DNA from: Niallia sp. Man26 | Lineage (GTDB): Bacteria > Bacillota > Bacilli > Bacillales > Cytobacillaceae | Reading direction: 5' to 3' | Assembly: GCF_022049065.2 (NCBI RefSeq) | Contig: NZ_CP095744.1 | Span: 620,001-684,000, forward strand | DNA: 64,000 bases | Shown here: positions 3,163 to 49,928 of the stretch, one piece after another | Numbering within the stretch: position 1 is the first letter of the stretch | Layout of the letters: each line of letters begins with the position of its first letter | Notes under the pieces: generated by a model | The model's database searches: none | What the model saw: the letters and a program-made list of their open reading frames with translations, nothing else | Told to the model about the DNA's origin: nothing | Program-made: the position numbers and the translations under genes

Positions 3163-5817
3163 TTGAGAAACATATTTACTATTTACAAAAATGATTGGAT
3201 ACGAATTTTCCAAGCTCCTGTTGCTTTATTTTTAATCATTGCATTAATGATATTGCCTTCCCTCTATGCTTGGTTTAACTTGAAGGCTTCTTGGGATCCA
3301 TATTCCAACACAAGCGGAATTAAGATTGCTATAACCAATGAGGATGAAGGGGCTGTTATTCGTGATAAGGAAGTTCATATTGGGGATGAGATTGTTGCAA
3401 CCTTAAAAGCGAATGATAAGCTTGGCTGGACATTTGTCAGCAAAAAAGAAGCTGATGAAGGGGTCAAAAAAGGTACTTATTACGCAAGTCTCTATATACC
3501 GGATGACTTTTCTGAGAAAATAGGTACGGTGTTAGAGGATAAACAAATAAAACCTGAAATTGAATATACGGTCAACGAGAAATTGAATGCCATTGCTCCA
3601 AAAATGACTTCCAGCGGTGCTTCCACTATTGTACAGTCTGTAAAGGAAAGCTTCGTGGAAACAGTCAGCGAATCTGTTCTGACTATCTTTAATGATGCGG
3701 GAATTAAATTAGAAGAAGAGCTACCTACTATTCGTAATATCGAAAGTAAAATCTTCACACTAGAGGGTGATATTCCTCAAATGGATGCTTTATCTGAGAA
3801 GATTTTAAATCTAGAGGAAAAAATTCCTGAAATAGATGAACAAGCGCAAAAACTTTTAGCGTTAGAATCAGCTATTCCACAATTAAATGAAGCATCTGAA
3901 AATATTTTGTTATTAGAAGAAAAACTACCAGAACTTGAAAAAGTAGGCGAAGGTATTCTTCTGCTTCAGGAAAAAGCTCCTGAAATCGAAAAAGTTGCAG
4001 GAAAAGTAACTGAATTAGAAACTCATTTTTCCGAAATTAGTGATACTGTTTCAAAAGCTGTCACTAATGTCGAAAAGATGCAAGAATTTATTACAACTGC
4101 AAGTGGCTCTTTAGAAGAAATAGAACAAGGCATTACTAATGGGCAACAAATAGCAGAAGCTCTTCCTGATTTTATGGAAGAAAATCAGGAAGCTTTTAAT
4201 ACAATAGGACCTGTGTATAAACAAAACCTGCTCTTATATCAAAAAACAGCGGATGCTGTACATCAGTATGCATCTTTAGTTAAAAGTGGTTCACTATCTG
4301 ATCAAGAAATAACAGAAAAAGCGTCCCTATTAAAGGCACAAGTACAAACAAGTATAGACAGCCTAAATCGTTCCATTGTTTTATTTACGACATTAAACAC
4401 TGCTACTACAAATGGGCAGTCAACACTACAACAAGAAATAACGGACTTGCAATCTTTGCAAACAAATTTTAATAAAGAAAAAGAATTACTTGGTACTATC
4501 CAAGAAAATAAAGAAGCAACAGAGTTGTTAACATTATCTCAAGAAGCTATTAATCTGAGCACTACAATGCTTAATCGTTATGATACGCAAACAGCACCTA
4601 GCATTAATAATGCCCTAGATGCACTGAAAGAAGCGACACAAAATGCTGGGGAAGATTTAAAAAGTGCTCAAGAGAACTTACCGAAACTTAAAGAAATTTT
4701 AGTTACTACAAAGGATTCTCTCACTCTTGCACAGGAAAATTTATCAAAACTTCAAAACAATCTACCTGCAATTGAAAAAGAGGTTAAAGAAGTTTCTAGC
4801 ATCTTTCAAGATAATATTGATGATGTTTTAGAAGGAATAGATAAAGCCGCAGACTTCTATACAGACACATTTCCATCCTTAGAAGAGAAAGTGCATGTAG
4901 CAGCGGACTTTGTGCGTAATGACCTTCCTGAAGCAGAAAAACAACTTTCTAAGGTTGCGTCCATCATTAGAAATGATTTGCCGGGATTGGAAGATTCTGT
5001 TCATAAGGTTGCAAATCTAGTTCGAGAGGAATTACCAGGCCTAAAGGACACCCTTACTAATACAGCAGATTCTATTCGGGATTTTGAAGATAATTATGAT
5101 CTTGGTGAAATTATCTCTCTGTTAAAAAATGATATTAATGAAGAAAGTGATTTTATGGCAAACCCAGTTGTTTTAGATGAACATTCTCTATTTCCAATAC
5201 CTAACTACGGGTCTGCCAATTCACCATTCTACACAACACTAAGTTTATGGGTTGGAGGATTATTACTGATTTCCTTGCTGCGTGTGGATGTCAGAGATCC
5301 AGAAGGAATTTATACTTCTAATCAAATCTATTTTGGTAGAGGTTTAACTTTTCTAACGATTGGATTATTTCAAAGTCTGATTGTTACATTAGGAGATATA
5401 TTCATCTTAAAAGCCTATGTAGCCAATCCAACCGCTTTTGTATTGTCCAGTATTCTTATCAGCATGGTTTTCATGACTATTGTGTATACATTAGTTTCGG
5501 TTTTCGGTAATATCGGAAAAGGAATCGCCATCATCTTCCTTGTATTACAACTATCAGGTGCAGGTGGAACATTCCCGATTCAAGTTGCTCCACCATTCTT
5601 CCAAGCCATAAATCCTTTCTTGCCATTTACGTATGCAATTAACTTATTACGTGAAACAGTTGGTGGAATGGTAAATGAAACAGTTTTTCATACTGTAAGC
5701 ATGTTGCTCCTGTTTGGTGTGGTTGCAATAATAATTGCCGTTTTCCTGAAAAAACCACTTGCTAATGCTACGAAAAAAACGGCAGAAAAAGCTAGATCAA
5801 GCGAAATTATTCACTAA
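3163..5817 (+). CDS. YhgE/Pip-family membrane protein
   Basis: A large protein of the YhgE/Pip (phage infection protein) type with an ABC-2-like membrane core. One N-terminal membrane helix (ALFLIIALMILPSLYAWFNL) leads into a long extracytoplasmic region, then about five helices at the C-terminus. Known members include the Lactococcus phage receptor Pip and proteins encoded with type VII secretion loci; the role here is unknown. The extracellular part holds five exact 17-residue units (LExxxP pattern, bases 3760-4014), then 18-residue units of the type VASIIRNDLPGLEDSVHK near residues 600-650. I chose TTG at 3163 because AAAGGGTG lies about nine bases upstream; the longer ATG at 3133 has no ribosome binding site. 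Monocistronic, with a terminator at 5857. Confidence 0.85.
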   Translation: MRNIFTIYKNDWIRIFQAPVALFLIIALMILPSLYAWFNLKASWDPYSNTSGIKIAITNEDEGAVIRDKEVHIGDEIVATLKANDKLGWTFVSKKEADEGVKKGTYYASLYIPDDFSEKIGTVLEDKQIKPEIEYTVNEKLNAIAPKMTSSGASTIVQSVKESFVETVSESVLTIFNDAGIKLEEELPTIRNIESKIFTLEGDIPQMDALSEKILNLEEKIPEIDEQAQKLLALESAIPQLNEASENILLLEEKLPELEKVGEGILLLQEKAPEIEKVAGKVTELETHFSEISDTVSKAVTNVEKMQEFITTASGSLEEIEQGITNGQQIAEALPDFMEENQEAFNTIGPVYKQNLLLYQKTADAVHQYASLVKSGSLSDQEITEKASLLKAQVQTSIDSLNRSIVLFTTLNTATTNGQSTLQQEITDLQSLQTNFNKEKELLGTIQENKEATELLTLSQEAINLSTTMLNRYDTQTAPSINNALDALKEATQNAGEDLKSAQENLPKLKEILVTTKDSLTLAQENLSKLQNNLPAIEKEVKEVSSIFQDNIDDVLEGIDKAADFYTDTFPSLEEKVHVAADFVRNDLPEAEKQLSKVASIIRNDLPGLEDSVHKVANLVREELPGLKDTLTNTADSIRDFEDNYDLGEIISLLKNDINEESDFMANPVVLDEHSLFPIPNYGSANSPFYTTLSLWVGGLLLISLLRVDVRDPEGIYTSNQIYFGRGLTFLTIGLFQSLIVTLGDIFILKAYVANPTAFVLSSILISMVFMTIVYTLVSVFGNIGKGIAIIFLVLQLSGAGGTFPIQVAPPFFQAINPFLPFTYAINLLRETVGGMVNETVFHTVSMLLLFGVVAIIIAVFLKKPLANATKKTAEKARSSEIIH

Positions 5818-5856
5818 TGGAAAAGTGATGTGTAGAAAAAATGAAGGCTGTATTTT

Positions 5857-5906
5857 AAACCTGTAGTCGAAACACTTTAAATTTGTGTTTCATCTGCAGG
5901 TTTTTT
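5857..5906 (+). terminator. Terminator after the YhgE/Pip gene
   Basis: A long imperfect stem, AAACCTGTAG-TCGAAACAC pairing with GTGTTTCA-TCTGCAGGTTT, is followed by TTTTTT. Confidence 0.8.
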
Positions 5907-6337
5907 CAGCTTATATAGGATAATATACGCAGTTTTGCGCCCCTTATGGTATAGTTGGTTCGGGATACCTACCATCTTTGACTTTCCTGCAAATTACAAG
6001 TGTGGGAAATAGCCAAAAGTATAGCTCTCTTTTTTAAGTATTATGATTAAATAATTTCACTCTTTTTAGTTTCTATATACACTAATTCCTTAAATACACA
6101 GTTACACGCAAATAAATAAATGAGCTTACACTTAAGAACAAGCGTTAATCACTCTTAGAATGAATTTAAATATTATAAAAACAGACTAATCCCTCTTTCA
6201 ATAAAAATTAAACCCACACCAAGTAACCTGGCATGAGTTTCAATAAACTACTATCATATATATTCAATTTCTTAACAGTCACCCTAGAATCCTCTTAATC
6301 CTTATCTCAATAATTACTTGAAGTATTCGATAATAAC
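5907..6337. other. Gene-free stretch
   Basis: About 430 bases with no convincing gene, repeat or RNA. A short open frame around 5935-6030 (QFCAPYGIVGSGYLPS and so on) has no start and is probably chance or a relic. No clear terminator for the minus-strand operon that ends at 6338 was found. Confidence 0.35.
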
Positions 6338-7666
6338 TTATTCTGAGTATGAATTTACCGGCAGCCCTAATCCTAAATTCCCTCGTAATGTATTACTTTC
6401 ATACGCCGTTCGATAGATTCCTCTAGCTTGCAGTTCAGGAATGACATAGGTAACAAAGTCTGTTAGTGAATCTGGCAAAAGCGCAGGCATGATATTGAAT
6501 CCATCAGCAGCACCGTCTCTAACCCATTCTTCCATCTTATCAGCAATTTGAGTTGGGGTTCCAATGGCTATATGATGTCCCCGCGAACCTGCTACCCACT
6601 GATAAGTCTGACGTAATGTCCAGTTTTCTTCTTTTGCTTTCTTTAGTATCATTTCATGCTTGCTTTGGATAGCATTAACAGTCTCTGGAAGTTTGATATC
6701 TGTAAATGTTGTATCGAGCGAAATGCCTGCAAAGTCTATGTCGCCGAAGTATCTGCCTAAAATAGCAAGTCCAGCTTTAGGTATGATCAACTCTTGCAAT
6801 GCTTCATATTTTTCTTGGGCTTCTGCTTCCGTCGCTCCTACTATAGGCATTAATCCTGGCATAATACTTACATCGCTTTTCTTTCGGTTGAAAATCTCCA
6901 TTTGACCTTTTAGGTCATTGTAAAAGGTAATTGCATCCTCTTTATTTGCTTGAGCAGTAAAGACAATCTCCGCATATTTAGCTGCGAATCGCTGACCATC
7001 ACCTGATGACCCTGCTTGTACAATGACTGGATGACCTTGAGGCGATCTTGATACATTTAGCGGCCCTCTAACAGAGAAGAATTCACCTTGATGGTTGATT
7101 TGATGAAACTTGCTTGTATCAATAAACTGTCCTGACTCTTTATCAATCACTAATGTGTCTTCTTCCCACGAATCCCATAGCTTCTTGGATACTTCCATAA
7201 ACTCTGTTGCTCTTCTATAGCGGGCACTGTGTTCTAAATGCTCTGTCTTATTGAAGTTTTCTGCAGTGGAAGCTAGTGATGTCGTAACAACATTCCAACC
7301 TGCACGTCCTGCGCTTATATGATCCAATGATGCAAACTTTCGAGCAACATGAAAAGGTTCTTCATATGTAGTGGATGCTGTTGCAACTAAGCCTATACGG
7401 CTAGTTACAGACGCTAAATAGGCTAACAACGTCATTGGCTCAAATCTAGTTAGAATGTTTGGATGTGAATTTTCATCAACAGACAAGCTATCTGCTAAAA
7501 ATAATAGGTCAAATAACCCTTTTTCTGCAGTCTGTGCGATATCTTTAAAATATGTTAGATTCATAGATGCATTCGGTACAGCATGTGGATGTCTCCATGA
7601 AGCAACATGGTGACCTGTTCCAGCTAGAAACAAACCTAATTTCACCTTTTTTGGTTGTTCGTTCAT
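6338..7666 (-). CDS. LLM-class flavin monooxygenase (YxeK-like)
   Basis: A 442-residue bacterial-luciferase-like monooxygenase of the NtaA/SnaA/DszA subgroup. It is FMNH2-dependent and needs an external flavin reductase. Visible marks are FLADS near residue 56, RFEPMTLLAYLA, the GWNVVTT motif at 123-129 and QAGSSGDGQ. In B. subtilis the yxe-operon homologue YxeK oxidises N-acetyl-S-(2-succino)cysteine and releases the thiol. Here the neighbours are a GNAT, an ABC importer and an M20 deacylase, so the same role is the best guess. It is the last gene of the operon, separated by 180 bases that contain an inverted repeat. AAAGGAGG upstream supports the start. A close paralogue lies at 43792. Confidence 0.88.
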   Translation of the reverse strand: MNEQPKKVKLGLFLAGTGHHVASWRHPHAVPNASMNLTYFKDIAQTAEKGLFDLLFLADSLSVDENSHPNILTRFEPMTLLAYLASVTSRIGLVATASTTYEEPFHVARKFASLDHISAGRAGWNVVTTSLASTAENFNKTEHLEHSARYRRATEFMEVSKKLWDSWEEDTLVIDKESGQFIDTSKFHQINHQGEFFSVRGPLNVSRSPQGHPVIVQAGSSGDGQRFAAKYAEIVFTAQANKEDAITFYNDLKGQMEIFNRKKSDVSIMPGLMPIVGATEAEAQEKYEALQELIIPKAGLAILGRYFGDIDFAGISLDTTFTDIKLPETVNAIQSKHEMILKKAKEENWTLRQTYQWVAGSRGHHIAIGTPTQIADKMEEWVRDGAADGFNIMPALLPDSLTDFVTYVIPELQARGIYRTAYESNTLRGNLGLGLPVNSYSE

Positions 7667-7758
7667 GTTGATTTTCCTCCTTTGCTTTTTAACCCTTTTG
7701 ACAAAAATAAAATCCTTCTTCTATCTGCAGAAGAAAGATCATAACTAGAAGAACAGTA

Positions 7759-7795
7759 CTTCGCAAACATAAATTCGTCGTTTACGCTTGCGAAG
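7759..7795. repeat. Inverted repeat before the monooxygenase gene
   Basis: CTTCGCAA (7759-7766) and TTGCGAAG (7788-7795) are perfect 8-base arms about 90 bases before the monooxygenase start. There is no T-tract, so it is not a normal terminator. It may stabilise or separate the two transcripts, or bind a regulator. Confidence 0.5.
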
Positions 7796-7846
7796 CATTT
7801 ACTTTTATTCAAAAACCGTCCTGTTCAAAACAGTTAGCCGACATCA

Positions 7847-8986
7847 TTATTTCTTATTCAATACATTTACTGCTAGATTAGCAAAATACTCAGACGCAAC
7901 TTTAATCGCGTCTTCCTTTAAATCAAATTGTGGATGATGCCATTCCTGCGGTCCATCTACACCCATCCAAACAAAAAAGCCTGGAATGTATGTTTGATAA
8001 AACGCAAAGTCCTCTCCACCGGCACTAGGCACAGCATCGACAACATTATAGCCAGCTTCGACAGCAGTAGCGCGAACAATTTCCTCCAAGTTGGCATCAT
8101 TATTAACTACTGGTAAATAATCATCCCAAATAAACTCAACAGAACCGCCATTTCCTTGAGCAATCGATTCTGCTAAGTTTTTCATTAGACCAGGAATCGC
8201 TGCTCGTGCTTCAGGCTGGAATGTCCGAACTGTCCCTTCAAGCATTACAACGTCAGGAATGACATTCCATGTGTTTCCTCCATGGATACTTGTAATACTA
8301 ATGACCGCATTATCAAACAAATTCAGTCTTCTAGCAATAATAGTTTGGACAGAGGTTACATATTGACTAGCAATAACAATAGGATCAATCGCGTTATGAG
8401 GAATACCCGCATGCCCGCCTACACCATGGAAATTAATCTTAAATTTATCGACACTTGCCATTAATCCCCCTGATTTTACACCAATAGTACCTACTGGCAA
8501 ATCCGGTTTATTATGCATTCCGAAAATAGAAGAAACTCCTTCTAATGCTCCTTTTTCGACAGCAAGCTTCGCGCCTTGGGCAACTTCCTCTGCTGCTTGG
8601 AAAATAAATCTCACTGTTCCGTGCAGGTTATCCTTCTGCTCATTTAAAAGAATCGCCGCTCCTAATATGGAAACAGTATGGAAATCATGACCACATGCAT
8701 GCATTTTTCCGTCTGTTTTCGATTTAAACGGTACCTTTGTTTCTTCTTTAATTGGCAAGGCATCAATGTCTGAGCGGATTGCAATAGTCGGTCCAGCAAA
8801 CGCACCCTTAACTTCCGCCACAACACCTGTTTCTAAATCAAGAGGTAGAATGGATATATTGTGTTCTTGTAACCACTTTTTAATATGAGCAGTTGTATTA
8901 AATTCTTCAAAAGCAAGCTCTGGATTTTCATGTAAATATCTTCTTTTTCCAATTAAGTCTTCTAATAGTTCATGAGACATTTTCAT
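7847..8986 (-). CDS. M20 metallo-amidohydrolase (YxeP-like deacylase)
   Basis: A 379-residue M20D amidohydrolase of the hippurate/N-acetyl amino acid deacylase type. Metal-site motifs are visible: MHACGHDFH (Cys98, His100), AAEE (Glu133-134), GMHN and GGEDFAFY. In the B. subtilis 2SC pathway YxeP removes the acetyl group from N-acetylcysteine. This gene follows the ABC ATPase gene with only a few bases between them, in the same operon as a GNAT that could install that acetyl group. The product has no signal peptide, so it is cytoplasmic. The start has only a modest AGAGATG site; a second in-frame ATG two codons on is possible. A paralogue lies at 42216. Confidence 0.9.
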   Translation of the reverse strand: MKMSHELLEDLIGKRRYLHENPELAFEEFNTTAHIKKWLQEHNISILPLDLETGVVAEVKGAFAGPTIAIRSDIDALPIKEETKVPFKSKTDGKMHACGHDFHTVSILGAAILLNEQKDNLHGTVRFIFQAAEEVAQGAKLAVEKGALEGVSSIFGMHNKPDLPVGTIGVKSGGLMASVDKFKINFHGVGGHAGIPHNAIDPIVIASQYVTSVQTIIARRLNLFDNAVISITSIHGGNTWNVIPDVVMLEGTVRTFQPEARAAIPGLMKNLAESIAQGNGGSVEFIWDDYLPVVNNDANLEEIVRATAVEAGYNVVDAVPSAGGEDFAFYQTYIPGFFVWMGVDGPQEWHHPQFDLKEDAIKVASEYFANLAVNVLNKK

Positions 8987-8991
8987 GATTA

Positions 8992-9732
8992 TTATTCATC
9001 TCTTTCCAGTGTTTTTAAAAATTGTTTCGTTCGTGGATTTTTTGGATTATGGAATAATTCCTTTGGATCATTTTCCTCGACAATATTTCCGTCTGCCATG
9101 AAGATGACACGGTTTGCTACTTCTTCAGCAAATTTCATTTCATGTGTAACGATAATCATTGTCGTGTTTTGCTTAGCAATATTTTTAATAACTTGAAGTA
9201 CTTCAGAAACCCATTCAGGGTCAAGGGCAGATGTTGGTTCATCAAACAGAATGGCATTCGGGTTTACAGCAAGCGCACGGGCAATCCCGACACGCTGCTG
9301 CTGACCGCCAGATAATGTAGACGGATATTGATGGAATTTATCCTCAAGCCCTACCTTTATTAACAGCTCTTTACCAATTTTCTCTGCCTCTTGCTTATCC
9401 ATTTTCTTGGCAACAATTAGTGCTTCCGTTACATTTTGCAAAGCTGTTTTATTTTTAAACAAATTATAGTTTTGGAAAACCATCGCTGTTTCCTGTCGCA
9501 AATTATGGACGTCTTTTCGTCCCATTTTAGCTACATCTACATTTGTTTCTCCAATATGGATAGTGCCTTCATCTGGTACTTCTAATAAATTTAAGCAGCG
9601 TAGTAATGTTGATTTCCCTGATCCAGACGGTCCAATAATGGCCAATACATCGCCACGATCGACGTGTAAATCAACACCATTTAAAACGGTATTTTTACCG
9701 AAACTCTTTTTCAAGTTTTTTACAGATATCAT
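8992..9732 (-). CDS. Polar amino acid ABC transporter ATPase (YxeO-like)
   Basis: A 246-residue ATPase of the polar amino acid uptake (HisP/GlnQ/TcyC) type. Walker [10 protein letters not shown] is at residues 34-42, the Q-loop is in VFQNYNLF, the signature LSGGQQQR precedes Walker [12 protein letters not shown], and the H-loop is in VTHEM. It would power import of a sulfur-containing amino acid with the permease and binding protein encoded just upstream. It resembles YxeO of the B. subtilis S-(2-succino)cysteine operon and also the cystine importers TcyC and TcyN, so the substrate is inferred from the neighbours. AAAGGAG upstream supports the start. Confidence 0.92.
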
Positions 9733-9744
9733 AGTAAGACTCCT

Positions 9745-10422
9745 TTAACTGATATACGGTTTTTCCATTCGCTTTTCGATTACTTGTTGGATTAAAGTAA
9801 CTATTATAATTAGAATCCAATAAAGCAATGCCAATGCTAAGTATGTTTCAAAGAATTTTAAGGAGCTTGCTGCTAATATCTTTCCTTGTGCAAATAATTC
9901 AACGATACCTAATGTAAAAGCTAGGGAAGTCTCTTTAATTAGACCAATAAAAACGTTGCTGCTCGCTGGAATCGCATTACGAGTTGCTTGTGGTAATACG
10001 ACCCTGCGCAAAGCTTGTGCCCTCGTCATTCCAACAGATAAACAAGCCTCTACTTGCCCTTTATCGACAGAGTTTAATGCTGCTCGGAAAATTTCCGCTA
10101 AAAACGCCGATTGCTTTAAGCTGAGTCCCAAAATAGCTGCTGTAACTGCGGTCATTCCAGTTAGAGCTGGGAAGATTTGCGGCAATCCGTAATAGATTAA
10201 AAACAGCTGTACTAATGTTGGAATTGCACGGAAAAAAGAAATATAAATGGTTGCAAGCTGCTTTAAAACAGGTATATTCGACCTAGTAATCAAAGCAAGT
10301 ATTAAGCCGCCAATAACAGAAAAGAACATGGATATGACAGCAAGAAATAAGGTGAATGGTATTAATTTCAATAGCGCCGGAAAAATTTCTATAAAGTAAC
10401 CAAAATCGAGTTCAAGATTCAT
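9745..10422 (-). CDS. Polar amino acid ABC permease (YxeN-like)
   Basis: A 225-residue inner-membrane permease of the HisMQ family with about five helices. The ATPase-coupling loop reads SVDKGQVEACLSVGMTRAQALRRVVLPQA, here cited in parts: the EACLSVGMT element is the EAA-type motif. The length is normal. It lies between the binding protein and ATPase genes with 12-14 base gaps, so the three form one importer. GGAGGAACAAA precedes the ATG. One permease gene implies a homodimer. Confidence 0.92.
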   Translation of the reverse strand: MNLELDFGYFIEIFPALLKLIPFTLFLAVISMFFSVIGGLILALITRSNIPVLKQLATIYISFFRAIPTLVQLFLIYYGLPQIFPALTGMTAVTAAILGLSLKQSAFLAEIFRAALNSVDKGQVEACLSVGMTRAQALRRVVLPQATRNAIPASSNVFIGLIKETSLAFTLGIVELFAQGKILAASSLKFFETYLALALLYWILIIIVTLIQQVIEKRMEKPYIS

Positions 10423-10436
10423 TTTGTTCCTCCAAA

Positions 10437-11219
10437 TTATTCCTTAACTGTGATGTCTTCACCGGCAAAGTATTTTTTAGATAGTTCTGCTAATGTTCCA
10501 TCCTCACGTAATTTCTTAATTTCTGCATTAAATGCTTCTGCTAATTTCTCACCATCTTCTGTTTTTGCGAATGGGAAAGAAACATCTTCGTACACAAATG
10601 GGTCACCAACAAACTTCAATGGTAGATCGCCTTTATCAATCTCAGCAATTAAAGATGATTTTGAGTTAACATAGCCATCGACACGATTGTTGATTGCGTC
10701 ATTCATTGCGCCATCGCGTGTTTCATAAGTTTTTGCGATAATTTCAGGATCAAAATTTTCTAGATTTACAACATTATTAGAGCCTAAAACGCCAGAAACT
10801 GTTTTACCTTTTAAATCATCTAAACTATCAAAATCATTGTCCTTGTTTGTAACAATTGTAGCCCCAGCATAAGCATATGGCTCAGAGAAATTATATTTTG
10901 CTTTTCTTTCTTCCGTTACAGCAACGAAGTTTGCAACAGTATCAATTTTCCCTGTTTCTAATTGTCCCATTAAACCTGCGAAGTCCGTTTTAACCCACTC
11001 CACATCATAGCCTAAGTTTGCAGCAATCTTTTCAAATACTTCTACGTCAAATCCAATTAATTTACCATCTTCTTCATAGCCGTTCGGATAACTTTGTGCC
11101 GTTGATCCTGCACGAAGAACTTTCTTTTTGCTATCCCCTGATTCTTCATTTCCACTTCCGCAAGCTGCTAATAACAACATAACTGCCATAGTAATAACTA
11201 CAAGTAATTTCTTTTTCAT
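10437..11219 (-). CDS. Amino-acid-binding lipoprotein (YxeM-like)
   Basis: A 260-residue family-3 solute-binding protein. The signal sequence ends in lipobox LLAAC (Cys20), so it is anchored on the outer face of the membrane. The body has the usual two-lobe pattern, with LIGFDVEVFEKIAANLGY near residue 60 and TDFAGLMGQLETGKID. It delivers a polar, probably sulfur-containing amino acid to the adjacent permease. Similarity to YxeM and to cystine-binding proteins is expected; S-(2-succino)cysteine as ligand is inferred from the operon. AGGAGAC upstream supports the start. Confidence 0.92.
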   Translation of the reverse strand: MKKKLLVVITMAVMLLLAACGSGNEESGDSKKKVLRAGSTAQSYPNGYEEDGKLIGFDVEVFEKIAANLGYDVEWVKTDFAGLMGQLETGKIDTVANFVAVTEERKAKYNFSEPYAYAGATIVTNKDNDFDSLDDLKGKTVSGVLGSNNVVNLENFDPEIIAKTYETRDGAMNDAINNRVDGYVNSKSSLIAEIDKGDLPLKFVGDPFVYEDVSFPFAKTEDGEKLAEAFNAEIKKLREDGTLAELSKKYFAGEDITVKE

Positions 11220-11227
11220 GATGTCTC

Positions 11228-11740
11228 CTACCTTTTCTTATATGTTTTTGCTAATAATAGTTTTTCTAAATAGATTGTTACATGTCCTTTACCTAAATCG
11301 GACTCTCCAACCTTTTCATAGCCACGCTTTAGATACATGTCTGCAAGCCAAGGATGCTCCTTTGCTGTGCCTAATGAAACAGAAGGACAATGAAGCGTGT
11401 CTCGCAAGTAATCATTTTCAATGAAATCTAAGAGTTTTGATGCATAACCCTTGCGTTTAAACTCAGGAGCAACAGCAACCCACCAAATATGCGGTATTTC
11501 ATATGGCCCATGATGGCTGCTCCATGGCATACGGATAGAAGCAGTCGCTACCATCTCGTCGCCATCCTTCATATAAAAACATATATTTTCATTGACATTT
11601 TTTTCTACTAGCTGCTCATCAGCAGTGGCTGCTGCAAAATTAATGCCAAGCTCACGGATGGAAGCATAACCGCGTAGTGATAAATCTAGTAATGCTTTGA
11701 TATCCTTATTAGTAGCTTGATGAAAGGTCAAATTACTCAA
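11228..11740 (-). CDS. GNAT N-acetyltransferase (YxeL-like)
   Basis: A 170-residue GNAT acetyltransferase. The acetyl-CoA pyrophosphate loop is KRKGYASKLL within VAVAPEFKRKGYA (about residues 87-103), and MYLKRGYEKVGESDLG is the typical C-terminal strand. In the yxe pathway YxeL N-acetylates S-(2-succino)cysteine before C-S cleavage. The TTG start lies inside the stop region of the lyase gene (eight-base overlap) with GGAGGG seven bases upstream, so translation is probably coupled. The position directly after the lyase and before an amino acid importer strongly suggests an amino-acid conjugate as substrate. Confidence 0.85.
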   Translation of the reverse strand: MSNLTFHQATNKDIKALLDLSLRGYASIRELGINFAAATADEQLVEKNVNENICFYMKDGDEMVATASIRMPWSSHHGPYEIPHIWWVAVAPEFKRKGYASKLLDFIENDYLRDTLHCPSVSLGTAKEHPWLADMYLKRGYEKVGESDLGKGHVTIYLEKLLLAKTYKKR

Positions 11741-13097
11741 CTAATAACCCTCCATTCTTAATAGAATGAATAACCTCATCTACCTTTTGGCTTGCAAGAC
11801 CAGTATACTGACTTGGATCTAGCAGCTGATTAATCTGTTCTTTCGACAGCACCGAGCCTACTTTCTCATTTGCTGACAGAAGTTCTTTAAATGGGACTTT
11901 TTGTTCGACTGACTCCATAGAGATTTGATACACAAGGTGATGAGCAGTTTGCTTCCCAACCTTTTCAGATAATGCAAACATGACACGTTCTGACAGGACA
12001 AGACCACCTTGCATTTCCAAGTTTCTCATCATATTTTCAGGTTTTACTACTAATCCTTCAAGAACAGTGATTGTGCTTTTCAACTGAGAAGAAAGATATA
12101 AGCAAATTTCAGGTAAAGCAATCCATTCACTTCTCCAGCTCATTGCATCTCGCTCATGCTCCATCACTAATGATTCATGGAGCAATGCAACACTATGCAA
12201 AATAGGTTTCGTTAAGCTTGCGATACCTTCAAAAATAGCCGGGTTGCGTTTATGAGGCATTGTAGTTGAGCCAACATTTCCTGTTTTAAATGGCTCCTCT
12301 ACCTCATCAATTTCTGTACGCATTAAATTATAAAATTCATTCCCTAACTTCCCTAGAGATCCACTTATCAAACCAAGTACAGAACCATATTCAGAAACTC
12401 TATCACGAGAGGAATGCCAACAAATATCTGGGGTATCCAATTCTAGAATTTCTAATGCTCTTGCTTCTACTTTAGGACCAATACTGCCTAATGCTGCGTA
12501 GGTTCCGACCCCTCCTGCTAGCACACCAGTAAAGACTCTCGTTTCAACAGCCTGTAATCTTTCTAAATGACGTTCAAACTCACTTAATACTACTGCCATC
12601 TTAAAGCCGAACGTTGTTGGTAATCCTTGCATTCCGTGTGTTCTTCCAGGCATTGGCGTATCTTTATAGGTAGAAGCTAATCCAATTAAAAGCTCCGCTA
12701 CTTTCTTAATATCTCGTTTAAGTATGTGATTTGCTTCTTTCAACTGAAGAATCATACCTGTGTCCGTTACATCCTGAGTAGTTACTCCATAATGAACAAA
12801 TTCACCATACTCACCAGAAAGTGATTGCAAGTGATTAACAGTTGCCATTAATGAATGTTTTAGCTTCGCAGCCTCTGCTGCTATTTTGTCAATTTCGAAG
12901 TTTTCTATTTTTGCAGCATCTTTTATTACACTTCCCGCTTTTTCGGGAATAACTCCTAGTTCACTTTCCGCCAACGCTAATCCAGCTTCAACATCAAGAA
13001 TTTTCTGTAATCTATTTTCATCATTCCATACAGCACGCATTTCCTCTGTACTAAAGTTATTTTGCAACATTTTTAAGTCTAAAACATGTGAACCCAT
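11733..13097 (-). CDS. Fumarase/adenylosuccinate-lyase superfamily lyase
   Basis: A 454-residue lyase of the class-II fumarase/aspartase superfamily, closest in look to adenylosuccinate lyase and PcaB. Numbered from the chosen start, HYGVTTQDVTDTG is at about 102-114, GRTHGMQG with the likely catalytic His at 151-158, and the signature GSTTMPHKRNP at 276-286. Members eliminate fumarate from succinylated substrates. PurB normally sits in the pur operon; here the gene leads an organosulfur operon, so a C-S lyase acting on S-(2-succino)cysteine or its acetyl form is a better guess. Such S-(2-succino) lyases of this superfamily have been reported. I start at ATG 13097 because GGGAGTG lies nine bases upstream; the ATG at 13115 lacks a site. 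Confidence 0.82.
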   Translation of the reverse strand: MGSHVLDLKMLQNNFSTEEMRAVWNDENRLQKILDVEAGLALAESELGVIPEKAGSVIKDAAKIENFEIDKIAAEAAKLKHSLMATVNHLQSLSGEYGEFVHYGVTTQDVTDTGMILQLKEANHILKRDIKKVAELLIGLASTYKDTPMPGRTHGMQGLPTTFGFKMAVVLSEFERHLERLQAVETRVFTGVLAGGVGTYAALGSIGPKVEARALEILELDTPDICWHSSRDRVSEYGSVLGLISGSLGKLGNEFYNLMRTEIDEVEEPFKTGNVGSTTMPHKRNPAIFEGIASLTKPILHSVALLHESLVMEHERDAMSWRSEWIALPEICLYLSSQLKSTITVLEGLVVKPENMMRNLEMQGGLVLSERVMFALSEKVGKQTAHHLVYQISMESVEQKVPFKELLSANEKVGSVLSKEQINQLLDPSQYTGLASQKVDEVIHSIKNGGLLVE

Positions 13098-13163
13098 TTT
13101 TGTTAACACTCCCATGTTGAAATCCAGAATATACTAGTTAGTCCTTTAACTCATAAAATATAT

Positions 13164-13213
13164 AATTCCTATGTTTATAGTGTGAATTATAACATAGTGT
13201 TTTTAACTTGCAA
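13164..13213 (-). promoter_or_regulatory. Promoter and dyad operator of the sulfur operon
   Basis: On the minus strand, TTGCAA (13208-13213), a 16-base spacer and TATAAT (13186-13191) form a plausible sigma-A promoter. A perfect dyad ATAATTC...GAATTAT (13162-13168 and 13184-13190) overlaps the -10 and the likely start point. The downstream half reads TAGGAATTAT, which resembles the GGAATT-containing boxes of the cysteine regulator CymR. Repression of this operon under cysteine-rich conditions is an inference. Confidence 0.5.
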
Positions 13214-13269
13214 CAATTTATTTAAAATTGAAAATGTACATATAAATTGGAAACGATTTAAAATGGAAA

Positions 13270-13296
13270 CAGTTTCTAATTAACTACTAGAAACTG
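13270..13296. repeat. Perfect 9-base inverted repeat
   Basis: CAGTTTCTA and TAGAAACTG are separated by nine bases, in the divergent region upstream of the sulfur operon. No T-tract follows. It could be a binding site or part of the larger dyad at 13310-13390. Confidence 0.55.
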
Positions 13297-13309
13297 CCAA
13301 TCTGTTAGT

Positions 13310-13390
13310 TTATAACCTAAAACAAGCAAGTTGCTAAAGCCGTTACCAACCCAAGCATAGTTGCCTATTAGTTAATTCTATAGGTTATAA
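13310..13390. repeat. 81-base element with 10-base inverted ends
   Basis: TTATAACCTA (13310-13319) and TAGGTTATAA (13381-13390) are perfect inverted ends around 61 bases that are less AT-rich than their surroundings (AAGCAAGTTGC, AAAGCCGTTACC). It carries no gene. It could be a tiny MITE-like remnant, a structured RNA or an operator pair. Confidence 0.45.
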
Positions 13391-13570
13391 TATCTTGCTT
13401 TATCAAATAATCTATTAAAATCTTTTTATATTTTTCCAAGCTTCTATTATAAAAGGAAAAATTCATTATTTATCTTCTACAACTTAGCCTATCATGAAAA
13501 TAATTATGTTACAATTTAAACATCTGATAATTCAGATACTTTTGATAAAAAAATGTAGGAGGTAGGTATT

Positions 13571-13627
13571 ATGACTAATAAAAAAAATATTTACGTAAAA
13601 ATCTATCGAGGGATTACGATTAAGTAA
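13571..13627 (+). CDS. Possible 18-residue leader peptide
   Basis: ATG to TAA encodes MTNKKNIYVKIYRGITIK. The site GGAGGTAGGTATT just upstream is stronger than that of most genes in this window, and an ATCTGA-TAAT-TCAGAT dyad lies at 13522-13537. The ORF ends 45 bases before the isochorismatase start. The peptide is basic and has no recognised family. It may be a real small protein, a leader peptide that tunes the next gene, or a chance ORF. Confidence 0.45.
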   Translation: MTNKKNIYVKIYRGITIK

Positions 13628-13672
13628 TCTAACTACTTAGCGTTTTCCCAAATTCTGAAAGGGGAAAATAAT

Positions 13673-14233
13673 TTGAACCAAACATTGCTAATCATCGATG
13701 CCCAGCAAGAAATAATTGATGGCAATCAAGAAGAAGAAGTAGTTTTTAATAAAGAACAACTGATTAAAAATATAAATTTATTAATCAAAAAGGCGGCAGA
13801 AGCAAATGTCTCCGTATTATTTGTAAGAGATTCAGAAGTTGCAGAAGGTGTAGGGAGCGGATTTCAAGTTCACAATGAAATTAATGTGCCTTCTGATCCA
13901 ATCTTCTTTGATAAGACTGCAACGAATCCCTTTCATGGGACAAATCTTTTGAAGCATCTGAAATCACAAAACATAAAACATATCGTTATTGCTGGTTGTA
14001 AAACACAGCATTGCATAGATACAGCCGTTAGAACAGCCACTGTCAATGGCTTTGACGTTACATTAGTAGGCGACGCCCATTCAACAACAGACAATGATTT
14101 TTTACGTGCAGAACAAATTATAAATCACCATAATGATACTCTTCATGGCCATTACAATGTTGATCACTTTTCAATTGTCAGGAATTCAGTGGAAGACTTG
14201 TATACACCATCACATGATTCTTACAGAGAATAG
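13673..14233 (+). CDS. Isochorismatase-family cysteine hydrolase
   Basis: A 186-residue hydrolase of the isochorismatase-like family. The catalytic triad is visible: Asp9 in IIDAQQE, Lys81 in DKTATNPF and Cys114 in TQHCIDTAVR. Members hydrolyse amides such as nicotinamide or carbamoyl compounds, or isochorismate; the substrate cannot be read from sequence. There is no signal peptide. The start is TTG, supported by GAAAGGGGAAA about eight bases upstream. It is the first clear gene of a plus-strand unit with the DUF1272 gene and may be led by the 18-codon ORF at 13571. Confidence 0.85.
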   Translation: MNQTLLIIDAQQEIIDGNQEEEVVFNKEQLIKNINLLIKKAAEANVSVLFVRDSEVAEGVGSGFQVHNEINVPSDPIFFDKTATNPFHGTNLLKHLKSQNIKHIVIAGCKTQHCIDTAVRTATVNGFDVTLVGDAHSTTDNDFLRAEQIINHHNDTLHGHYNVDHFSIVRNSVEDLYTPSHDSYRE

Positions 14234-14296
14234 TAAAACGAGTTTAAGTGCAGAAGCATGTTTATCTAAAACAATTGAAAAGCGAGGAATATAATA

Positions 14297-14479
14297 ATGG
14301 CTTTGGAAATGAGAAAAGAATGTGAACGCTGTACTTCTTTATTAGCGGAAAGCTCAATTGCTTATATTTGTGTTCACGAATGTACATTTTGCGAACCTTG
14401 TACAGAAAATATGAAACAAATTTGCCCAAACTGTGGCGGAGAACTAGTTAGAAGACCTAGAAAACAATTAAATAGATAA
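14297..14479 (+). CDS. DUF1272 zinc-ribbon-like protein
   Basis: A 60-residue cysteine-rich protein matching DUF1272: MALEMRKECERC at the start, CTFCEPC in the middle and CPNCGGELVRRPR at the end. The four CxxC-type pairs suggest that it binds one or two zinc ions. The function is unknown. GAGGAATATAATA precedes the ATG. It lies about 60 bases after the isochorismatase gene and shares its terminator, so the two are probably cotranscribed. Confidence 0.9.
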   Translation: MALEMRKECERCTSLLAESSIAYICVHECTFCEPCTENMKQICPNCGGELVRRPRKQLNR

Positions 14480-42215: not shown

Positions 42216-43403
42216 TCAGCTAGATTTTTTTGCAAAATTTTCTGCATAAATCTTATTTAACGCCTGTTCTGCAAGATCTGCAAAGTAATAAGCCGCCGGC
42301 AATATCGCTTCTTCATTCAGTGTATATTTTGGATGATGGAGACCATATTCACCAGATACGCCGATATTAACAAAAGCACCACGAATTAATTGCTGGTAAA
42401 AGGAAAAATCCTCTCCTCCTGATGTTGGTTCAACTTCGACTACTTTATAGCCATTTGTTTTTGCAATATGGCTCGCAAAGTTGGTCCATTCTGGGTCATT
42501 ATTAACAGATGGCGGGCCAGCATGCCAGATTAGTTCCCCTTTTGCGCCATATGTTTCTGTTATTCCTTTAATGACTCGCTCGATTTTTTTTCGTATCGTT
42601 TCGCGAATATCTTCCTTAAATGTCCTTACAGTGCCTTCTAAGTAAACTGTCTCAGGAATTACATTCCAAGTGTTGCCGCCGCGGATTTGTGTGACGCTGA
42701 TAACGGCTGTTTCACTCGGCTTCGTTTCTCTGCTTATAACTGCTTGTAATCTTGAAATAATTTCAGCGGCAATTACGATAGGATCAATACCTTCATGTGG
42801 TCTTGCAGCATGACTGCCTTTTCCCTTTATGTTAATTTCGAACCGGTCAACTCCAGCTGTTAACACGCCTTCCTTTACACCAAGGACACCGACCTCACTA
42901 AGCGGGTCATTGTGTAGGCCAAATATTGCCTCCACTGCGTTCAAACCGCCTGAATTTATAATAGATTTGGCACCATGGCCAGTTTCTTCAGCCGGCTGGA
43001 AGATAATTCTGACTGTTCCCCGCAATCTGTCCTGCCTGTTTTTCAGCAAATAAGCGGCTCCAATTATAACAGCTGTATGGAAATCATGGCCGCATGCATG
43101 CATTACACCAGGAATAGTAGATTGGAATGAGCTGACAGCTTCCTCATTAATTGGCAAAGCATCAATATCAGCCCTGATAGCAACAACCGGCCCATCAGAC
43201 TGTCCTTTAACTTCGCCAATGATACCTGTTTGCAATGGTACATCCAGCACGGAAATCCCTGCGTTTTCCAGCCATTTCTTTATCTTCTTGGAAGTTTCTA
43301 TTTCTTGGTTAGAAAGTTCAGGTTCAGCATGAAGATTCCTGCGAACATCAATTAAATGACTTTCCAGTTCATTCTTATTATCGCTCACTATATTTAATCC
43401 CAA
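42216..43403 (-). CDS. M20 metallo-amidohydrolase, second copy
   Basis: A 395-residue M20D deacylase paralogous to the one at 7847. Metal motifs are MHACGHDFH, PAEETGHGA, GLHND and GGEDFSFY. It would remove an acyl group from an N-acyl amino acid in the cytoplasm. It lies downstream of an LLM monooxygenase and an unknown protein on the minus strand, so it is likely to act on the product of that enzyme. TTG start with GGGAGG seven bases upstream; an ATG in another frame gives only a ten-codon ORF. Confidence 0.88.
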   Translation of the reverse strand: MGLNIVSDNKNELESHLIDVRRNLHAEPELSNQEIETSKKIKKWLENAGISVLDVPLQTGIIGEVKGQSDGPVVAIRADIDALPINEEAVSSFQSTIPGVMHACGHDFHTAVIIGAAYLLKNRQDRLRGTVRIIFQPAEETGHGAKSIINSGGLNAVEAIFGLHNDPLSEVGVLGVKEGVLTAGVDRFEINIKGKGSHAARPHEGIDPIVIAAEIISRLQAVISRETKPSETAVISVTQIRGGNTWNVIPETVYLEGTVRTFKEDIRETIRKKIERVIKGITETYGAKGELIWHAGPPSVNNDPEWTNFASHIAKTNGYKVVEVEPTSGGEDFSFYQQLIRGAFVNIGVSGEYGLHHPKYTLNEEAILPAAYYFADLAEQALNKIYAENFAKKSS

Positions 43404-43433
43404 TTTTCATCCTCCCTTTCCGATAAGCTGCTT

Positions 43434-43766
43434 TTAAGATTCCTCCAGAAATTGCTTAAGTGATTTAACTAACCCGCCGCTCCCAAATTTGACATACTTG
43501 CTGTCTGTTTGGAATTGCTCTTGTTCCCACAAATATTCTAAGTAAGCAATAACATGAATCCGTCTGCTGATGATATTATGAATTCCGTGTGAATAAAACC
43601 ATTCATCAATTGTATGGTAAATCCCTTTATTTATTTTGTATTTTTCATTGCACCATTGAAAGAACCGAACTTCGGGAAAATGAAGATATTCACAATGAGC
43701 AAATGCTTCCCTTTTCTTGATTCGAAATACTTTTTTTGAGACGACAAGCCCATAATCCAGCAGCAT
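43434..43766 (-). CDS. Unknown protein in the second sulfur-type locus
   Basis: A 110-residue soluble, basic and aromatic-rich protein (FFQWCNEKYKINKG, HTIDEWFYSHGIHNII, AYLEYLWEQEQF) with no family I recognise. It has no membrane helix and no clear cofactor motif. GGGGAGGAAGG lies about eight bases before the ATG. It is wedged between the LLM monooxygenase and the M20 deacylase with gaps of about 25-30 bases, so it is certainly cotranscribed. An accessory or small binding role for that pathway is possible but unproven. Confidence 0.6.
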   Translation of the reverse strand: MLLDYGLVVSKKVFRIKKREAFAHCEYLHFPEVRFFQWCNEKYKINKGIYHTIDEWFYSHGIHNIISRRIHVIAYLEYLWEQEQFQTDSKYVKFGSGGLVKSLKQFLEES

Positions 43767-43791
43767 GTGAATTCCTTCCTCCCCTGTAAGT

Positions 43792-45129
43792 TTATTTTTG
43801 ATTAATTGGCTGTTTTTCGTATTGGCTATGCTTGTATGCTAAACCTAAATTCTCGCGGAGCGTTGTACCAGTATACTCCTTATTGTAATAGCCCTTGCTT
43901 TCCAAAATTGGCAGGATGTGTTCAATCCAATCAGACAAACCGCTGCCAAGCACTGGGGCACCGTATATGAAGCCATCTGCAGCACCACCGTCAATCCAAG
44001 CAATCAGCTGGTCTGCCACTTGCTCATATGTTCCAAAAAAAGCGCTTTTCGGGGTTGTTACTTGCAGGGCAACCTCTCTTAATGATAGGCCATTTTCCTT
44101 CGCCAGTTTTTTGATGCCGTCTGTTGTAGAACGGAAGCTGTTTGCACCGACATCCCCAATTTCAGGAAAAGGCTCATCAAGAGGAAAGGCAATGAAATCG
44201 AAATGGTCAAAGAATCTTCCTAAGTAATTTAATGCTTCTTCTATGGATACAAGATTTTGAATAGCTGCATATTTTTCTTCCGCCTCTTCAATAGTTCTGC
44301 CTGCAATCGGGTGGATGCCAGGGAAGATTTTGATGTCATCCTTGCTTCTGCCAAGCTGCTCTGCCCGATTTTTGACGTCATCATAAAAAGCCTTAGCTTG
44401 TTCAAATGAATTCGAATTAGTAAAAACAGCATCAGCGTCCTTTGCAGCAAGGTATTTCCCTGCTTCAGATGAGCCAGCTTGAAAAATAACCGGCTGACCT
44501 TGCTTTGAACGTTCGATATTTAATGGACCTTTGACAGAGAAATGCTTGCCGGTATGATTTAAGGTATGCAATTTTTCTGGATCGAAAAACTGTCCCGTTG
44601 AGCGGTCTCTTACAAATGCGTCATCGTCCCACGAATCCCACAATCCTTTGGCCACTTGCAAGTACTCTTCGGCAATTTCGTATCTTAACGCATGGTGAGG
44701 ATGATCTGCTTTACTGTAATTTTCTGCTGATCCTTCTAATGGAGAAGTAACAACATTCCAGCCTGCTCTGCCGCCGCTCAGCTTATCTAACGAAGCATAC
44801 TGGCGAGCAATCGTGAATGGTTCACTATAAGAAGTAGATACTGTCCCGACTAAACCGATATTTTTAGTAATGGTGGCAAGCGCAGATAAAATCGTCAACG
44901 GCTCAAATCGGTTCAAGAAATGAGGAATCGATTTTTCATTAATATAAAGACCATCAGCAACAAAAGCGAACGTGAACCCAGCTTCTTCTGCCTGCTTAAT
45001 GATAGATTGATAATATTCGATATTTACACTAGCGTCTGCAGGAACAGATTCATCTTTCCATGCGTTCATATGTCCTCCAGGGCCGTGCAGCATAACACCA
45101 AATTGAATTTGTTTTTTCTTTGTCATCAT
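43792..45129 (-). CDS. LLM-class flavin monooxygenase, second copy
   Basis: A luciferase-like monooxygenase of about 445 residues in the NtaA/SnaA/DszA group, paralogous to the one at 6338. Shared marks are [14 protein letters not shown], the [11 protein letters not shown] motif and QAGSSEAGK. It needs FMNH2 from a separate reductase, and such enzymes often cleave C-S or C-N bonds. It heads an operon with the unknown protein and an M20 deacylase, divergent from a peptide-type importer. GGAGG lies six bases before ATG 45129; the upstream ATG at 45135 touches that site and is unlikely. Confidence 0.88.
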
Positions 45130-45170
45130 TCTCATCCTCCATTAGCTTTTTTAAAATACCAACAAATCTT

Positions 45171-45180
45171 GTAGGAATAG
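45171..45180. promoter_or_regulatory. GTAGGAATAG element
   Basis: A near copy of GTAGGAATT, about 40 bases before the LLM gene. See the copies at 45383 and 50958. Confidence 0.3.
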
Positions 45181-45216
45181 TTTTGATTATCATAAACCAA
45201 AAATTTGAAAATGTAT

Positions 45217-45305
45217 AATTAGTATTTTTAAAGTCATGCTTTAATTTTATTAATACAGGTAACTAGACGGTTCTCAATTCCAAAAATTAGTATTTTTAAA
45301 GTCAT
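45217..45305. repeat. Pair of 21-base direct repeats
   Basis: AATTAGTATTTTTAAAGTCA plus T occurs at 45217-45237 and again, exactly, at 45285-45305, 68 bases apart, between the two divergent sulfur-type operons. The spacing and the identity suggest paired regulator binding, for example a LysR-type activator, or a short local duplication. Confidence 0.65.
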
Positions 45306-45358
45306 TTATTAGTTTTTTTAATTTAACAAATCTTCTGTCAGATGTTAGCATAAGCACT

Positions 45359-45391
45359 AATCCTACAATACAAAGTTAAATAGTAGGAATT
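45359..45391. promoter_or_regulatory. Dyad with a GTAGGAATT element
   Basis: AATCCTAC (45359-45366) and GTAGGAATT (45383-45391) form a dyad about 30 bases before the binding-protein start. The right half also appears inside the promoter at 50951. Confidence 0.45.
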
Positions 45392-45418
45392 AAACTACAC
45401 GCTACAGGGGGTATTACT

Positions 45419-46969: not shown

Positions 46970-46977
46970 TACAACTT

Positions 46978-47026
46978 AAGAAGCAAGACTTGTGCTTACT
47001 TACTCCTGTCTTGCTTCTTCTATTTT
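46978..47026 (+). terminator. Intra-operon attenuating hairpin
   Basis: AAGAAGCAAGAC and GTCTTGCTTCTT are perfect 12-base arms followed by CTATTTTAATT. Placed between binding protein and permease genes, it likely causes partial termination and excess binding protein. Confidence 0.8.
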
Positions 47027-47053
47027 AATTATCAATTTTGAAAGGAAGATTTC

Positions 47054-48007: not shown

Positions 48008-48021
48008 GAAAGGAGAAAAAC

Positions 48022-48924: not shown

Positions 48925-49928
48925 GCCAGGTGCTGCCATTGCTTAAAATCGAGGACTTGCAAGTGGACTTTGCCACACATCAAGGAGAGGTCTCGGCTAT
49001 TGACGGTGTTTCATTCGAACTGGAGGAAGGTGAAATATTAGGTGTTGTCGGGGAATCCGGCTGCGGAAAAAGCGTGACAGCAGAAGCCATACTCCAGCTG
49101 CTCGATGAAGACAGCACCTTTTATAATGGAAAGATTATGTTTAACGGGGAAAACCTTTTGGAGTATGACAAGAAAAAGATGGAGAAGCTGCGCGGCAATG
49201 ATATTGCGATGATATTTCAAGATCCCATGTCCTCACTGAATCCTGTAATGCCTATCGGCAAGCAAATCGCAGAATCAATTCGGATTCATCAATCTGCCAC
49301 AAAAAAAGAGGCATACCAAAAAGCTGTCGAACTGCTGAAGCTCACTGGAATCCCTTCCCCTGAACAAAGGGCAAAGGAATACCCTCATGAACTTTCCGGC
49401 GGGATGCGGCAGCGGGTTATGATTGCCATGGCGTTATCATGCCAGCCTAAGCTGTTGATTGCTGATGAGCCGACAACTGCATTGGATGTAACTATTCAGG
49501 CACAAATTCTTGAATTAATTACTTCTTTTCAGAAACAGCTGAATATGGGGATTATCCTCATAACCCACGACTTTGGTGTGATTGCCAATATGTGTACAAA
49601 AGTCGCTGTGATGTATTTAGGGCAGGTAATTGAAGAAACAGATGTGCAGACTCTTTTCAAACAGCCCTTTCATCCTTATACAATTGGTTTAATGAAGTCT
49701 GTGCCTCAAATTGAGGGTGAACGAGTTGATTATTTACACAGCATTGCGGGCACTGTTCCTTCCCTGTTTCAAATTCCAAAAGGCTGCCGGTTCGCACCGC
49801 GATGCAAGTATGCAACAAGCAGATGCGAAAGTAAAATGCCTCTTTTAGAAACAGTCGCAAAAAACCACCGTGTCCGCTGCTGGCATTATGATGAGGTAAA
49901 GAAAGGAGACACACTGTATGCAGACTGA
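48921..49928 (+). CDS. Peptide-type ABC ATPase 1 (DppD-like)
   Basis: A 335-residue ATPase of the OppD/DppD type. Walker A GESGCGKS is near residue 44, the signature LSGGMRQR comes before Walker [13 protein letters not shown], and the C-terminal extension holds the Cys cluster [15 protein letters not shown] seen in peptide ATPases, which may bind an iron-sulfur centre. The ATG overlaps the permease stop (ATGA). GAGGAGGAGG precedes it. Confidence 0.93.

Follow-up and report, generated by a model that had tools for sequence, protein, structure and literature searches.

Why should one gene cluster carry two different enzymes for cutting the same carbon-sulfur bond? The question is raised by a stretch of 64,000 nucleotides from Niallia sp. 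Man26 (contig NZ_CP095744.1, positions 620,001 to 684,000 of the forward strand; hereafter the window), in which seven open reading frames on the minus strand (6338-13115) encode, in order, a lyase, a GNAT acetyltransferase, a solute-binding protein (SBP), a permease, an ATPase, an M20 amidohydrolase, and a luciferase-like monooxygenase (LLM). A first-pass annotation had described this order, and all seven frames lie at the place and on the strand that it gave, with the domains that it assigned. It had also proposed that an eliminative and an oxidative route for S-(2-succino)cysteine (2SC) share the cluster, and a 2SL-type S-(2-succino) lyase and a monooxygenase of the ScmK/YxeK type do sit together here. 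According to passages of PMC9706529, 2SC marks the fumarate overload that occurs in diabetes, obesity, and certain cancers. The cluster is quite likely a two-route system for the uptake and salvage of this compound. The ABC transporter would import 2SC and the GNAT protein would acetylate it to N-acetyl-2SC. The C-S bond would then be cut either by 2SL through elimination, giving fumarate and N-acetylcysteine, or by ScmK through oxygenation, giving oxaloacetate and N-acetylcysteine, after which the M20 enzyme would free cysteine. This scheme is sequence-based and draws on the families and the order of the genes, on the purifying selection that acts on both cleavage enzymes, and on the position of scmK in the slot that yxeQ fills in sister loci.

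The order of the cluster is not due to chance, because the run lyase-GNAT-SBP-permease-ATPase-M20 recurs in Niallia, Neobacillus, Oceanobacillus, Lysinibacillus, Trichococcus, Enterococcus italicus, and Pantoea. A yxe/scm locus has been defined by the clustering of at least three of the five elements K, L, MNO, P, and Q (PMC9706529), and the window has K, L, MNO, and P but not Q. A natural fusion of a 2SL-type lyase with its GNAT (P0035, 612 amino acids, in a record named Paenibacillus polymyxa) ties the first two genes of the cluster together.

The lyase is called an adenylosuccinate lyase in its source, and one reading would treat it as another PurB, or as an enzyme of the PcaB type, with no link to sulfur, which we regard as very improbable. 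The protein does score above the cut-off of the purB model TIGR00928 (364.6 bits vs 326.2), which probably explains the source name, but the assayed E. italicus 2SL passes the same cut-off (367.7 bits) and has nearly the same NCBIfam profile. Among curated models, the window lyase scores highest with XcbD (459.7 bits against a cut-off of 600), followed by a PurB subfamily model (457.8 bits, cut-off 626) and PcaB. In a tree of 72 rows, it falls within a 47-row clade (support 100/100) together with the E. italicus lyase (L023; L and G numbers are our labels for loci and genomes), to which it is 59% identical and which passages of PMC9706529 describe as a 2SL proven by assay. The genome's own PurB (L205), a PcaB-like row (L214), and an XcbD-like Xanthobacter row (L212) stand outside this clade. 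The placement of Xanthobacter is unsure because both of its rows are long branches. The tree was built without the D. dadantii 2SL, 17 Gilliamella lyases, duplicate genome copies, and the short pieces L051, L060, L068, and L083. The PurB encoded elsewhere in the genome matches TIGR00928 with 607.5 bits; thus the outcome that the first-pass annotation had named as fatal to its idea, grouping with PurB in a genome with no other purB, is not what is seen. The PurB/PcaB candidate was rejected on the tree position and on this separate PurB.

The superfamily motifs of the lyase are intact (HYGVTTQDVTDT, GRTHGMQGLPTT, and GSTTMPHKRNP). The reading frame does extend to 13115 (460 amino acids), as first annotated, but that upstream ATG is not conserved in the nearest relatives, which have a ribosome-binding site there instead, and this supports the conserved start at 13097. 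Very probably the enzyme is a C-S lyase freeing fumarate from N-acetyl-2SC, the substrate that 2SL is stated to prefer in PMC9706529. Membership in the clade of the assayed enzyme supports the original suggestion of a fumarate-releasing C-S lyase; the suggestion is not new, since the replacement of YxeK by 2SL and their rare coexistence were published in 2022.

The monooxygenase is 59% identical to a protein that its source names YxeK [Bacillus subtilis] (P0196) and passes the >50% threshold of PMC9706529. Higher identities are found to Peribacillus proteins (77-79%), one Rummeliibacillus protein (78%), and a metagenome protein (P0128, 81%) with the JGI name N-acetyl-S-(2-succino)cysteine monooxygenase; the closest solved structures by sequence are those of YtnJ/MoxC. 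The Peribacillus-like ScmKs (L181-L183) head GNAT-SBP-permease-ATPase-yxeQ loci. Compared with these loci, the window is 79% identical in ScmK, 44% in GNAT, 64-65% in SBP, and 48% in M20, and the contrast between ScmK and GNAT indicates a history of ScmK separate from that of the rest of the cluster. Such a foreign origin, together with the several substrates known for the family to which ScmK belongs (PMC10863075, passages), would suit a division by substrate, in which ScmK cleaves some other S-adduct (e.g., a different dicarboxylic thioether) and N-acetyl-2SC is left to 2SL alone. We consider this improbable, as the nearest relatives of ScmK that could be located (79%) head yxe-type loci with YxeQ and as the genes are under strong purifying selection.

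The pairing of both routes is rare. Of 102 yxe loci surveyed in 2022, 27 had 2SL, 67 had yxeK, and three had both (PMC9706529, passages). Our scan of 193 genomes of the family found 2SL of at least 85% identity in 10 and a 41% relative in one (E <= 1e-100), and ScmK of at least 84% in six, each time with 2SL on the same contig and strand and in the same layout. No further LLM above 55% appeared among the family matches listed (E <= 1e-120). The six dual-route loci are those of the window, G169, G172, G174, G176, and G177. Their lyases form one clade in the 2SL tree (100/98), and the lyase and ScmK trees agree in branching order for G172, G174, and the window; the order within the Niallia taxi trio (G169, G176, and G177) differs between the trees, the lyase tree being weakly resolved there (80/38). 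The simplest reading would be a single gain followed by common descent.

A second, independent dual-route lineage was sought in family, class, and plasmid scans and was not found. In a class sample of 398 genomes, the lyase matched (E <= 1e-110) only in the source genome (G000) and in G564 (41%), and an LLM of at least 59% was present in 10 genomes, the source genome included. In the Brevibacillus-type family of G386, 2SL was detected in none of 39 genomes (E <= 1e-130). Among plasmid records, Niallia taxi alone exceeded 90% for either gene and all others remained below 60%. The dual-route locus as a mark of one Niallia clade, with six genomes, is new here. The window itself is on a contig of 1,346,576 bases (C2; C1 has 3,887,076 bases), while the cluster of Niallia taxi NBC_Nia is on the plasmid record pMEGANia (1,442,636 bp) and that of G169 on a contig of 1,456,738 bp; judged by its size, the window contig is probably a megaplasmid of the Niallia taxi group. 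In the N. circulans-type genome G168, the lyase is on a single contig of 5,175,203 bp.

Pairwise dN/dS over five genomes ranges from 0.02 to 0.08 for the lyase and from 0.04 to 0.10 for ScmK, with dS up to 1.85, a pattern that indicates purifying selection on both cleavage genes. It is hard to reconcile with pure redundancy or drift, in which ScmK arrived through a chance capture and merely duplicates the work of the lyase on one and the same isomer: neither gene exceeds a ratio of about 0.10 over this divergence. Redundancy can appeal to the complementation of a B. subtilis yxeK mutant by 2SL (PMC9706529), but the experiment used a yxeK mutant, and the passages of that paper do not mention removal of yxeQ. 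We find redundancy a doubtful explanation.

What sets the dual-route loci apart is the gene that follows the M20 gene. In the nearest single-route loci (N. circulans and Neobacillus; L176-L179), the end of the M20 gene overlaps yxeQ, a gene of the MmgE/PrpD family, whereas in the dual-route loci scmK occupies this slot. Within the available stretch, yxeQ is present in 56 of 58 2SL-only loci, 20 of 21 ScmK-only loci, and none of the six dual-route loci. The tally for 2SL began with 80 loci, of which 19 at 31-39% identity (L064-L067 and L069-L083) were set aside; the remaining 61 comprise three dual and 58 2SL-only loci, 20 of the latter from Gilliamella. Both 2SL-only loci without yxeQ (L021 and L068) are truncated at contig ends, and the lyase of L068 is also in pieces. 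In L058, yxeQ is split in two and lies about 8.5 kb away from the lyase. The ScmK-only locus without yxeQ (L185) is decayed and also lacks the permease, ATPase, and M20 genes. The near-universal yxeQ of single-route loci, its absence from all six dual-route loci, and the presence of scmK in its slot are new here. The first-pass annotation had spoken of a redundant or two-substrate design; the two routes are indeed together, but that description missed the replaced yxeQ slot, which suggests a reading with two stereoisomers instead.

Whole-genome searches of the six dual-route genomes found YxeQ (70%) only in G172, the earliest branch; G169 has a relative at 25% only, and in the remaining four nothing matched at E <= 1e-8. 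Among 348 genomes of the class, seven of nine YxeQ matches are beside a ScmK of at least 59%, and the other two are distant MmgE/PrpD proteins (G207, 39%; G360, 33%) with no neighbour matching any cluster protein. No yxeQ was found in 16 loci with other LLMs, of which only about four (L194, L204, L233, and L234) have GNAT and/or M20 partners and which are thus a small control for clusters of the S-alkylcysteine type, nor in the second LLM/M20 cluster of the window. As separate observations, Proteus mirabilis (L235, 8001-10815) has a lyase relative of 44-46% with an MmgE/PrpD gene directly after it, and a similar pair on an E. coli plasmid (L236, 7932-10385; lyase relative also 44-46%) is broken into pieces; no other cluster genes were matched near either pair.

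The nature of YxeQ may explain this exchange. For the YxeQ of L208, a locus of the B. subtilis group, PDB 7bra ("Bacillus subtilis IRG1") scores 812 bits, and the best matches of other kinds are the iminodisuccinate epimerase of 2hp3 (207 bits) and then cis-aconitate decarboxylase (at most 92 bits). The entries 7bra and 7e9d, both under the IRG1 name, are the YxeQ ortholog of the yxe locus, an identification that is likewise new here. By PDB comparison and Pfam, the YxeQ proteins of L208 and L178 have MmgE/PrpD domains and are nearer to iminodisuccinate epimerase than to cis-aconitate decarboxylase. Of 76 distinct YxeQ sequences, 73 have the motif RGHP and 64 have HYx(1-2)G[WFY]H; the roles of the active-site His and Tyr residues are taken from passages of PMC7347537. 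There, the active-site residues of 7bra are described as completely conserved with the epimerase, and two residues important in the mammalian decarboxylase as not conserved. That paper labels the protein a cis-aconitate decarboxylase and derives the proposed mechanism from the structure and from docking; the word "assay" is absent from its text. A title cited in the same paper states that Agrobacterium tumefaciens BY6 requires two enzymes, an epimerase and a stereoselective C-N lyase, for turnover of all iminodisuccinate isomers. YxeQ itself was listed as of unknown function in 2022 (PMC9706529, passages).

YxeQ accompanies both kinds of 2SC locus, whose four-carbon products differ (fumarate and oxaloacetate), and was not found in the other LLM loci, about four of which resemble S-alkylcysteine-type clusters, so its substrate should be 2SC or N-acetyl-2SC. 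The closest relative that has been studied, iminodisuccinate epimerase, inverts an N-succino carbon by transferring a proton beside a carboxylate. When succination proceeds without an enzyme, both isomers arise at the succino carbon, and lyases of this superfamily are known to use a single isomer. The lyase would accordingly use one isomer while YxeQ would normally convert the other, and in the dual-route clade a ScmK of opposite preference would have replaced the epimerase, which a second cleavage enzyme of the other preference would make dispensable. We tentatively propose that YxeQ/ScmQ is an epimerase of 2SC or N-acetyl-2SC and that the dual-route clade pairs a lyase and a monooxygenase of opposite stereospecificity instead. 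Replacement by an enzyme for the opposite isomer may be the most likely reason for keeping both enzymes, although we hold it short of an even chance; it fits a clade that has no yxeQ in the locus and whose earliest branch, G172, retains a displaced copy. The literature passages covered contain no report of stereospecificity for ScmK or 2SL, and the main text of PMC9706529 contains no words on stereoisomers, racemisation, or epimers. No proposal of YxeQ as an epimerase was found in the literature searched, subscription papers being mostly outside that scope.

A split by oxygen offers a different and likewise possible account, in which 2SL would work without oxygen and ScmK with it, ScmK being retained for its irreversibility and the loss of yxeQ being incidental. 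Passages of PMC9706529 state that YxeK needs oxygen and that 2SL is reversible (Kc 0.0046 and 0.0067), and they suggest different conditions for the two. Two hairpins in the gap of 180 bases between the M20 gene and scmK also fit separate control. They are kept in most of the six dual-route loci; their alignment has 30 consensus pairs, five with changes on both sides, and a weak covariation term of -0.66. The first hairpin is partly broken in L173 and the second is poorly kept in L175, and as a side observation the second is about 40 bases ahead of the scmK start, leaving little space for a promoter after it. The word operon, used in the first-pass annotation, suits the overlapping lyase and GNAT genes, but a single operon is not shown for the whole cluster because this hairpin-bearing gap separates scmK from the M20 gene. 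The oxygen split leaves unexplained why almost every single-route locus of either kind has yxeQ while all six dual-route loci are without it.

Several points weigh against the replacement of YxeQ and, in part, against the two-route scheme. Both routes coexist in G172 with an orphan yxeQ, which stands alone on another contig among unrelated neighbours. The locus of G174 (L005) ends 385 bases past ScmK and cannot by itself show that yxeQ is absent, for which the search of that whole metagenome-assembled genome, with no yxeQ found, has to serve. The six dual-route genomes represent one evolutionary event and thus carry no statistical weight. A possible counter-example is Acerihabitans (L046), in which 2SL, YxeQ, and an LLM occur in one 21-kb stretch; this LLM is 45% identical to the window ScmK and 76% identical to a Pantoea piersonii LLM that is beside YxeQ. 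Should this LLM be a ScmK, the stretch would combine both routes with YxeQ, which would weaken the replacement rule without contradicting an epimerase. The P. piersonii LLM is itself only about 51% identical to other ScmKs, and the Acerihabitans and Pantoea LLMs are on a long branch. The P. piersonii lyase locus (L213, outside the 58) has no yxeQ within 6 kb, and one is about 290 kb away on the same plasmid, beside the LLM. In the ScmK tree, LLM paralogues, of the kind with YtnJ-like surroundings, fall between window-type and B. subtilis-type ScmKs with moderate support (86/92), although one clade of all 35 ScmK-like rows is not rejected (p-AU 0.361); in that tree L172, L174, and L175 stand in for L004, L005, and L008, and its rows omit many LLM loci of 45-53%. 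The two hairpins suggest that ScmK may be transcribed apart from the rest, and every enzymatic step in this organism is one that we infer.

If the epimerase proposal is true, yxeQ gains a function and structure 7BRA a corrected one, while a suggestion of itaconate production by B. subtilis (passages of PMC13307414) loses its basis. The dual-route loci would then offer a natural test of the stereospecificity of lyase and monooxygenase.

Table 1. Predicted features of the dual-route cluster and its control elements (positions in the window).
Feature	Position	Strand	Basis and remarks
2SL-type S-(2-succino) lyase gene	11733..13097	-	454 amino acids from the conserved start; Lyase_1 and ADSL_C domains; clade with E. 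italicus 2SL
GNAT N-acetyltransferase, YxeL/ScmL-like	11228..11740	-	GNAT domain; 8-base overlap with the lyase gene
Solute-binding lipoprotein, YxeM-like	10437..11219	-	SBP_bac_3 domain; best NCBIfam model is a cystine binding protein, score under its cut-off
Amino-acid ABC permease, YxeN-like	9745..10422	-	Domain search (BPD_transp_1)
ABC ATPase, YxeO-like	8992..9732	-	Domain search (ABC_tran)
M20 amidohydrolase, YxeP/ScmP-like putative N-acetylcysteine deacetylase	7847..8986	-	Peptidase_M20 and M20_dimer domains; function after ScmP, an N-acetylcysteine deacetylase (PMC12757645, passages)
ScmK/YxeK-type FMN monooxygenase	6338..7666	-	Bac_luciferase domain (NtaA/DmoA family); occupies the yxeQ slot of the nearest 2SL loci
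Two terminator-like hairpins between M20 gene and scmK	7797-7757 and 7740-7711	-	Second hairpin just ahead of the scmK ribosome-binding site
Promoter-like site TTGCAA-16-TATAAT, TG before the second hexamer	13186..13213	-	Consensus match only; largely kept in the six dual-route loci

Over and beside the -10 element of this putative lyase promoter is an inverted repeat, TATAATTC-N14-GGAATTATA (window 13161-13191), which is kept with a mismatch in most dual-route loci and which looks like a site of the CymR cysteine-regulator type. A search of 5800-14300 for RNA families or riboswitches gave no Rfam match up to E 1. Opposite the lyase is an isochorismatase-family gene (13673-14233), for which none of the 80 lyase loci gave a match covering half of the gene. 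The window also contains a second possible organosulfur cluster (42216-52003), with an M20 amidohydrolase (42216-43403) that is 50% identical to the first and an NtaA-type LLM (43792-45135) that is 43% identical to ScmK. Opposite these two genes are a family-5 binding protein, two Opp-type permeases, two ATPases, and a TauE/SafE-type exporter.

Four known systems invite comparison. XcbD, by its model name the 3-sulfopropionylcysteine synthase of coenzyme M synthesis, gives the best NCBIfam score of the window lyase, belongs to the same superfamily, and would share C-S chemistry with it. The XcbD-like Xanthobacter lyase scores 574.7 bits against the XcbD model, which also falls short of the cut-off (600), and adjoins a phosphosulfolactate synthase, a neighbourhood unlike that of the window. 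The combination of 2SL and YxeQ in single-route loci can be likened to A. tumefaciens BY6, which, from titles cited in PMC7347537, uses an MmgE/PrpD epimerase with a stereoselective lyase; its substrate is N-succino, not S-succino. The YxeK-type yxe/scm operon of B. subtilis shares ScmK, GNAT, SBP, permease, ATPase, and M20 with the window, whereas the window, compared with the B. subtilis-group locus L208, has 2SL at the head, ScmK at the tail rather than at the head, and no YxeQ. The 2SL-type yxe/scm loci of E. italicus and Dickeya dadantii share the GNAT, transporter, and M20 partners, often in the same order, and the lyase clade is shared with E. italicus. Compared with the E. italicus locus, in which yxeQ is directly upstream of the lyase, the window adds ScmK and is without yxeQ.

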